A stretch of DNA of 64,000 nucleotides from a virus. Location of the stretch: positions 1 through 64,000 of IMG/VR virus record IMGVR_UViG_3300032829_000004; one strand, written 5' to 3'. Numbering within the stretch: position 1 is the stretch's first letter; each line of letters begins with the position of its first letter. The notes under the pieces were generated by a model. It was given only the letters and a program-made list of their open reading frames with translations, did no database searches and was not told the DNA's origin. Position numbers and translations under genes: made by a program. This document shows, piece by piece, positions 36,132-37,313 of the stretch.

Positions 36132-37313
36132 GTGCCGGTGACCGTTCCCGCGCACGTGCAAGCGGAGTCGCATCACTACGTGATGCACTTCCCGCCCCAC
36201 CCGGCCAGGGCCGACGACCCGCATTACGCCGACTTCGACCACTACCACCGCAAGACGCGGGCGACCGCACGGTGTTACATCGGTGAGCGGATCGGGTTCG
36301 GCGACTGCAAAGACGCGCAGTGCAAGCCGTGCCCGCCTCCTGAAGACGGCGGCGAGCAGCCGGGGCTCGAGCTGCACCATGCCCACGTCGAGTTCAGCCT
36401 CCAGAACGGCGTCGACCTTGCCGCACTCGAGAAGGACTACCCCGGCATCTCCGACCCGTCTCAGGTCGGGGCATGGGTCGAGTCGGAGGCGAACTTCCGG
36501 TGGCTCTGCGTCGCCGAGGGATCGCCCGTGCTGATGGCGGACGGCACGACGCGCCCGATCGAGTATGTGCTACCCGGCGAGCAGGTCATCGGCAGAGACG
36601 GACTGCCTCACCTTGTCGAAGTAACCAGCCGGAAGAGGTATCGCGGCGAGCTCGTATCGTTCGGCTGCGCGTCGTTCACGCCTGAGCACCGCATTCTTAG
36701 TCATCGAGGCTGGCTCTCTGCGGCCCATGTTTTCCGCCAGGTCTGGATGCATGGCCCGGACGTGATCGCGCTGCGATGCGAACAGAACCAGATTCGCTCT
36801 GGCGTTGTCGGCGCGGTTCCCGTTGAGGTGGTGAACGCGCTCTCGCGGCAGCAGCGGGCGCCCTATCCAGTCTTCCATGACCACGACGTGCTCCATGCGA
36901 TGCCGGCTGCCGTCCCAGATGCGGATGTAGCCCTTCGCGGTGACCCAGGCCGTCCGGTTGCCGACGTTCCACTTCGGGAGCTTGTTCAGCTCCGTGAGGC
37001 GGCACTCGTTGGTGCAGTAGCGCCCGACGTTCGGGCGGGAGCGCCAGTGCGCCGGTCGGTGGAAGGTCTTCCCGCAGGAGGCGCAAGCCCAGAGATGGGA
37101 TGGGTCACAGCGATGCCCAGCCGGACGGCCGCTTTTACCGGATGGGTTCACGACCTAAGTGTAGCGCATAGCCACTCTTTTGTTGTGGGCGGCATCGCGG
37201 CTCATAACTGTGCCTGGCATCACAGGGGGGCGGCCGGGGCGCATACGGCGTCGCATTCCGATTGGGAGGCGAGCCAGTACGTGCAGGGTCTGATTTCGCA
37301 GGCGGCGAAGTGA
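36132..37313 (+). CDS. HNH/zinc-type phage protein interrupted by an intein
   Basis: 393 residues as translated; GTG 36132 (GTG 36138 also possible). The N-extein (1-125) has a four-Cys site (CYIG...CKDAQCKPC) and LELHHAHVEFSL. The intein is residues 126-359. The C-extein begins at Cys360 in CAWHHRGAAGAHTASHSDWE. Rejoined, ELHHAH ... N.RWLCAWHHRG has the spacing of a His-Asn-His beta-beta-alpha metal nuclease. The intein therefore sits at the conserved Cys next to the putative active-site His pair. Function of the mature protein: probable HNH endonuclease or metal-binding protein. It lies between holin candidate 1 and the metalloprotease. Confidence 0.8.
   Translation: MPVTVPAHVQAESHHYVMHFPPHPARADDPHYADFDHYHRKTRATARCYIGERIGFGDCKDAQCKPCPPPEDGGEQPGLELHHAHVEFSLQNGVDLAALEKDYPGISDPSQVGAWVESEANFRWLCVAEGSPVLMADGTTRPIEYVLPGEQVIGRDGLPHLVEVTSRKRYRGELVSFGCASFTPEHRILSHRGWLSAAHVFRQVWMHGPDVIALRCEQNQIRSGVVGAVPVEVVNALSRQQRAPYPVFHDHDVLHAMPAAVPDADVALRGDPGRPVADVPLRELVQLREAALVGAVAPDVRAGAPVRRSVEGLPAGGASPEMGWVTAMPSRTAAFTGWVHDLSVAHSHSFVVGGIAAHNCAWHHRGAAGAHTASHSDWEASQYVQGLISQAAK
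36507..37208 (+). mobile_element. Intein (Hint splicing domain, 234 residues)
   Basis: Block A CVAEGSPVLMADGTTRPIEY starts at Cys126 (intein Cys1). Block B is TPEHRIL with Thr183 and His186. Blocks F and G read VHDLSVAHSHSFVVGG then AAHN, with penultimate His358, Asn359 and +1 Cys360. All residues for class 1 splicing are present. No LAGLIDADG or sense-strand nuclease lies between B and F. The middle is instead the reverse complement of an HNH gene on the other strand, kept free of sense stops. The segment has visibly lower GC than its flanks. Confidence 0.9.
36570..37151 (-). CDS. HNH homing endonuclease-like protein encoded antisense inside the intein
   Basis: 193 residues from GTG 37151. 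The N-terminal zinc site is CASC (Cys23/26) and CTNEC (Cys46/50). A central GYIRIWDG...RMEHVVVMED strand pair precedes the HNH core VHHLNGNRADNARANLVLF (His107/108, Asn111, Asn120) and His130. This is the arrangement of freestanding phage HNH homing enzymes. The gene covers the whole linker between intein blocks B and F and its 3' end runs antisense through block B. A TACACT box lies 8-13 bases upstream of the start. It is likely the enzyme that mobilises the intein. Confidence 0.85.
   Translation of the reverse strand: MNPSGKSGRPAGHRCDPSHLWACASCGKTFHRPAHWRSRPNVGRYCTNECRLTELNKLPKWNVGNRTAWVTAKGYIRIWDGSRHRMEHVVVMEDWIGRPLLPRERVHHLNGNRADNARANLVLFASQRDHVRAMHPDLAENMGRREPASMTKNAVLRRERRAAERYELAAIPLPAGYFDKVRQSVSADDLLAG

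Follow-up and report, generated by a model that had tools for sequence, protein, structure and literature searches.

Evidence for a viral intein with an HNH homing endonuclease gene on its opposite strand, and for a family of terminase inteins of the same design

The locus: intein, host gene and antisense HNH gene

The window is a 64,000-nucleotide stretch of viral DNA, in which the features relevant here lie as follows.

36132..37313, plus strand: whole reading frame, exteins and intein, 393 codons, stop-free
36132..36506, plus strand: N-extein, a small phage protein, GTG start, 125 residues (homology; sense-favouring codon usage)
36507..37208, plus strand: intein, 234 residues, Cys1 to His-Asn (Hint/intein profile matches; absent from all extein homologues examined)
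36507..36740, plus strand: N-terminal splicing domain, with block A beginning at 36507 and block B (FTPEHRIL) at about 36675-36698
37146..37208, plus strand: motifs F and G of the C-terminal splicing part, VHDLSVAHSHSFVVGGIAAHN (NCBIfam intein_Cterm match)
37209..37313, plus strand: C-extein, first residue the +1 Cys (tblastn to L001-L004)
36570..37151, minus strand: antisense HNH homing-endonuclease frame, 193 residues, GTG start (HNH_3 and PHROG HNH matches)
36720..37091, minus strand: HNH core, residues ~21-144, with zinc Cys pairs, GYIRIW and VHHLNGNRADN (shared with L295; pLDDT; codon usage)
36570..36719, minus strand: probable read-through tail of the HNH frame, antisense to blocks A and B (low pLDDT; L295 ends equivalently)
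37153..37176, minus strand: leader common to the window and L295 HNH genes, AGTGGCTATGCGCTACACTTAGGT, inside the block F coding sequence
37158..37163, minus strand: possible -10 element TACACT, 6 nt before the HNH GTG

An earlier note on this DNA, made from its letters, had described a complete set of splicing elements, i.e. blocks A, B, F and G with Cys1, TxxH, the terminal His-Asn and a +1 Cys, and all of these are present at the coordinates it gave. The intein begins, as in class 1 inteins, with a Cys nucleophile and block A (CVAEGSPVLMADG at 36507), block B has TPEH at 36678, block F begins at 37146, and the penultimate His and terminal Asn directly precede the +1 Cys (...AAHN/C at 37208/37209, the slash marking the junction). 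The N-terminal block matches Pfam Hom_end_hint (E 4.5e-6; E 9e-8 in a genome search), the C-terminal block matches NCBIfam intein_Cterm with an E of 0.025, slightly below the family cut-off, and the PDB sequence matches are to PI-SceI at the N-terminal end and to the DnaX mini-intein at the C-terminal end. By its motifs 36507-37208 is a class-1-type intein, which is predicted to splice. An AlphaFold model of it, made from two sequences, reached a pLDDT of only 32. A nuclease domain was looked for in the sense frame of 36132-37313 and none was found, in agreement with the note. No second copy of the intein was found in the relative searches and scans, a scan of other viruses for the same C-terminal junction gave no match, and a DNA-level search of the phage collection found nothing. 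A match of HerculesXL to the N-terminal part of the intein was rejected as spurious, being an antisense reading of ordinary genes.

In the host protein the intein is inserted in the motif WLC(A/S)(W/F)HH, after the Leu and before the conserved Cys. Relatives of this protein were taken from IMG/VR (4 in a first search, the best 80 of 125 in a later one) and from four actinobacterial genomes, and none of those examined in either source has an intein. The intein-free homologues, including L001 (84% identical to the N-extein), L002-L004 and L008, the closest intein-free allele (92% protein identity over the joined exteins), read seamlessly through WLC-A with no extra residue, and more than 80 intein-free relatives display the exact empty site. 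Because the protein is joined seamlessly at the conserved Cys in all intein-free relatives examined, the intein is a sporadic insertion at a precise site, and the alignment bears out the note's view that the host is split at a conserved Cys. The genomes with extein homologues include Mycobacterium, Kutzneria and Streptomyces, genera which suggest that the window's virus is an actinobacterial phage. The description of the host protein as HNH-like, by contrast, gained no support from profiles, no Pfam, PHROG or PDB profile matching the extein protein; an HNH nature is hinted at only by the pattern of residues invariant among its homologues (C48, C59, HH82-83, N121, C126, HH129-130). In L043 (3495-3803, minus strand), L002, L015 and L018, HNH genes are found close to intein-free copies of the host gene, which suggests that homing endonucleases target this gene repeatedly.

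The 193-residue antisense HNH frame that the note had reported, with zinc Cys pairs (C23/C26, C46/C50) and a VHHLNGNR core, is present at 36570-37151 on the minus strand, where it is codon-aligned with the intein. The profile search that the note had proposed matched HNH families, i.e. HNH_3 at 26.7 bits (cut-off 24.8; 23.5, slightly under it, in another search) and 15 PHROG families, nearly all of them HNH endonucleases (best phrog_15471, E 7e-13). Across most of residues 20-140 the AlphaFold model has a pLDDT of about 85-97, and a Foldseek search of the PDB with it gave no significant structural match. The last ~45-50 residues are modelled with low confidence and are missing from the closest relative, so they are probably read-through antisense of blocks A and B. 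No second copy of the HNH gene was found in the 97,802-base virus record.

That closest relative, in L295, is 52% identical over 124 residues. It is a free-standing gene (136 aa), convergent with an intein-free homologue of the host gene, whose end it overlaps and to which its orientation is opposite, as in the window. The 24-nt leaders of the two HNH genes are identical at 22/24 positions with one 1-nt gap, and 0/5000 shuffles were as good. A sigma-70 scan upstream of the window HNH start gave no promoter match and no strong Shine-Dalgarno sequence was found before it. The counterpart of TACACT in L295 is TAAACT, 6 nt before the ATG; the 6-nt spacing of TACACT to the GTG suggests a leaderless transcript, a type of transcript that occurs in actinobacteria. 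One frame of the L295 leader reads SLAHSHF, and its likeness to LSVAHSHSF in block F makes entry of the HNH gene into the intein and its exit from it both conceivable. L295 may represent one step in the joining of a flanking homing gene and an intein into one mobile unit, or the reverse, and makes the route between flanking and intein-borne homing genes testable.

Coding strand and open sense frame in the window

In the exteins and the N-terminal splicing domain the GC maximum falls at the third codon position of the sense frame, and in 36741-37151 it falls at the third codon position of the antisense frame (0.83 vs 0.64). With a codon-usage model trained on genes of the window itself, the score of the HNH core is +5 when read as minus-strand code and -58 when read as plus-strand code, the N-extein shows the reverse, and minus-strand usage is favoured across 36741-37094. 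This flip of strand in both GC and codon usage identifies the middle of the intein as a minus-strand HNH coding sequence. At the level of sequence, the intein anatomy, the empty sites, the HNH homology and the switch of coding strand are direct observations.

The stop-free sense frame that the note had reported requires more care. It does run without a stop over 393 codons; its openness, however, is not above chance, in that the sense frame stays open in 28% of synonymous recodings of the HNH with local codon usage (P=0.28). The open sense frame of the window alone is hence no evidence of selection, and the argument from one to the other was rejected for the window.

Inteins with antisense HNH genes in phage terminases

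The same arrangement is found again in a family of terminase genes, comprising 84 loci. A scan for relatives of the HNH gave many that lie inside longer ORFs of another frame, and one of these, in L119, lies antisense inside an intein (Pfam Intein_splicing E 6.6e-9) that interrupts a terminase large subunit at the P-loop (GGNR/C...HN/SSKT). The 84 loci, which span a GC of 0.33-0.71, came from scans with the L119 HNH and with an aligned set of related HNHs; selection was by similarity of the HNH and independent of architecture. In 84/84 the HNH match is antisense within one continuous sense ORF, in the single register a1-s1, the inteins being placed at the terminase P-loop or next to it, and most have the intein C-block ..VPxYHNYxxxGVxHHN followed by P-loop residues; sampled hosts were confirmed by terminase and intein matches.

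In the window, as in this family, an antisense HNH is placed in an intein between its blocks B and F. The window element has neither the register a1-s1 nor a place in the common HNH clade, outside which its HNH falls on a weakly supported tree of few columns, and this HNH has an N-terminal Cys zinc motif, whereas some terminase HNHs give weak HTH matches. By sequence comparison, and with the tree weakly resolved, the window element is a separate lineage of the same design.

The arrangement is present in cultured phages, eight carriers being identified: Pectobacterium phages Sabo, Ymer, Abuela, Taid, Pappous, Koroua and Amona, and Dickeya phage Setonix. In seven annotated records of the Ymer genus (L209, 1607-3871, minus strand; L214-L217, L219 and L220) the intein-bearing terminase is labelled 'hypothetical protein', and the paper on this genus (PMC11445585) mentions no intein. 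The joined terminase exteins match hundreds of cultured-phage terminases, 44 of them at 60-80% identity; among the matches listed, these terminases align to the joined exteins as one uninterrupted piece.

Homologues in which the antisense frame is broken and the intein is intact would, according to the note, refute its reading. In the terminase family, a separate lineage on which the direct tests of selection rest, the HNH frame is intact in 83/84 loci, and broken in one (L188), with the sense frame open in all, and it has evolved under purifying selection. Among 38 representatives of less than 75% identity, 0 sense-frame stops were observed vs 204 predicted by synonymous recoding. These lineages share descent, yet they are far apart and stops would arise fast without selection; in this family the DNA is under constraint in both frames.

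The positions of variable sites in the cultured Pectobacterium and Dickeya phages are informative as to what is selected. In the exteins and splicing domains variable sites are at sense position 3, whereas in the HNH core they are at sense position 2, the third position of the HNH codons (22/35 vs 8/197 in the flanks; Fisher p 1.5e-15). Changes in the core are synonymous in the HNH frame at 21/35 sites, vs 23% expected (p 4e-6), and in the sense frame at 6/35, a neutral-looking value (p 0.43). Together these patterns imply that the HNH and the splicing domains are selected, while the middle of the sense frame need only stay open. Upstream of the antisense HNH starts, 19/38 lineages have Shine-Dalgarno runs of at least 5 (7.4 expected), and 9/38 have sigma-70-type sites of 10/12 or more (0.7 expected). 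That the architecture recurs, and that both frames are under selection, can be read from the terminase sequences themselves.

Individual loci vary. In L188 (3001-3519) the HNH frame is broken and the sense frame intact, and in L181 (1-2241, minus strand) the intein apparently has no block B region and the HNH is intact; these are possible decay states. In L352 (3-3263, minus strand) one terminase-like gene contains two inteins: the one at the P-loop has an antisense HNH, and the other, further downstream, encodes a LAGLIDADG nuclease in frame.

Hidden HNH genes of other kinds were also observed. Same-strand, out-of-frame HNHs lie in long host ORFs in L102, L104, L110, L112-L116, L132, L134, L139, L146, L162, L298, L303, L307, L308, L314, L327, L331, L334, L343 and L344; a DNA methylase match was found in 9/10 of the hosts scanned with Pfam, and the set contains many elements like the ShiLan domain discussed below, some at GC <0.35. 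Antisense HNHs in long ORFs were seen in L100, L108, L118, L140, L148, L153 and L299, the hosts being polyvalent proteins (ART-PolyVal, LPD22), an InPase-domain protein and DNA methylases. These were rejected as inteins, since Pfam detected no intein in any of them and NCBIfam none in all but L299; they are possibly the antisense counterpart of ShiLan. In L098 (Gordonia phage GAL1) an HNH match at ~1501-1794 lies inside a gene called 'nucleotide kinase' or 'hypothetical protein' in two records, possibly another hidden HNH.

Interpretation and comparison with known systems

The evidence is best accounted for, with a probability of roughly 85%, if the window carries a mobile intein with its homing endonuclease gene on the opposite strand. 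The sense transcript would be translated straight through, after which the split Hint domain at the ends of the insert would excise itself together with the ~100-150-residue middle, and so join the exteins at WLC-A. In the sense direction the middle would be a passenger, any sequence being tolerated if stop-free. The opposite strand would yield the HNH from a separate start, and probably from a separate promoter, within the code for block F; this enzyme would most likely cut intein-free host alleles, and the entire unit would thereby be copied into them. The note's proposal of an HNH gene inserted backwards, with splicing and nuclease functions made from opposite strands, is supported in its architecture; splicing, antisense expression, empty-site cleavage and homing are inferred.

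The window alone would be suggestive; it is the recurrent terminase family that makes the architecture convincing. Inteins with antisense HNH genes are probably a widespread and old phage class that has arisen at least twice, once in the large family of terminase P-loop inteins and again, separately, in the host gene of the window, and in which two opposite-strand proteins are kept by selection and the promoter and ribosome-binding site of the nuclease lie within the code for a splicing domain. Expression of the nuclease can, in such an arrangement, be independent of host-gene expression and of splicing, the two coding sequences overlapping head to head; tools that consider the sense frame only would label such elements mini-inteins without a nuclease.

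The most serious alternative concerns the site of cutting rather than the architecture. Collaborative homing is known for phage homing endonuclease genes, and the HNH could be a selfish gene for which the intein is only a safe harbour, or could take part in such homing, cutting, as its free-standing relative may, at or near the host gene, with mobility of the intein as a by-product. The free-standing HNH of L295, beside an intein-free host gene and in the same opposite orientation, is in keeping with this, as are the other HNH genes near the host gene in L015 and L043. An intein-borne HNH would, however, be copied along whenever the host gene is cut, so that the two readings differ mainly in the cleavage site; this alternative is the less likely of the two.

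It is improbable that the intein is real and the antisense HNH a dead or unexpressed passenger left by a past insertion. Purifying selection on the HNH frame in the terminase family argues against it, as do, in the window, an intact frame with all catalytic and zinc residues, the minus-strand codon bias and the leader in common with the free-standing L295 gene; what can be said for it is that one copy of the window intein is known, that the expression signals at its HNH are weak, and that in the terminase relative L188 the HNH frame is broken while the sense frame is open.

Somewhat less probable still is an insert that no longer splices, i.e. an out-of-frame HNH whose insertion is tolerated in a dispensable protein, as with the ShiLan domain. 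The closest phage-collection relatives of the window HNH do include the hidden HNHs of ShiLan type in methylases (PMC11855218), and splicing of the window ORF is predicted from motifs; but ShiLan has no splicing motifs, whereas the window has Cys1, TxxH, His-Asn and the +1 Cys, at a conserved Cys site delimited by empty alleles. Finally, long antisense ORFs are common at a GC of ~0.7, but a chance open frame in a GC-rich genome is refuted by the specific homology to HNH families and the 52% identity to the independent HNH gene of L295.

Inteins are understood as one polypeptide, with the nuclease embedded in the splicing domain. The proposed intein with an opposite-strand nuclease resembles canonical homing inteins, such as PI-SceI and those of mycobacteriophage TerL (PMC5050341), in its Hint blocks, its insertion in a conserved functional motif and its sporadic distribution; in these, by contrast, the endonuclease is in frame, in the same polypeptide and usually of the LAGLIDADG type, whereas that of the window is antisense. 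Phage terminase inteins have been described with endonucleases of their own (PMC5050341), and a text search of that paper finds no mention of antisense or of an opposite strand. No intein with an antisense endonuclease was found in the literature searched; a preprint on actinobacteriophage inteins of 'non-canonical architecture' (10.1101/2025.01.02.630785) could hold a precedent. L352 combines a canonical LAGLIDADG intein and an antisense-HNH intein in one gene.

The ShiLan domain, a hidden out-of-frame HNH in mycobacteriophage DNA methylases, is similar in that an HNH homing gene is concealed within a host gene, in an insertion free of stops, and HNHs of this type are among the nearest phage-collection relatives of the window HNH, at about 40% identity. 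The ShiLan HNH is, however, on the strand of the host gene, in an alternate frame, and its insertion is without splicing domains, whereas the window HNH is on the opposite strand and sits inside an intein. The free-standing HNH gene of L295 has the HNH family, host gene, relative orientation and leader in common with the window, but is not intein-borne.

The opposite orientation of homing gene and host transcript has a parallel in the rDNA L2066 group I introns, in which homing-endonuclease genes may be antisense (PMC9548176). Group I introns, which are removed by RNA splicing, tolerate any stop codon; an intein, by contrast, must remain translatable, and so both frames constrain the same DNA.
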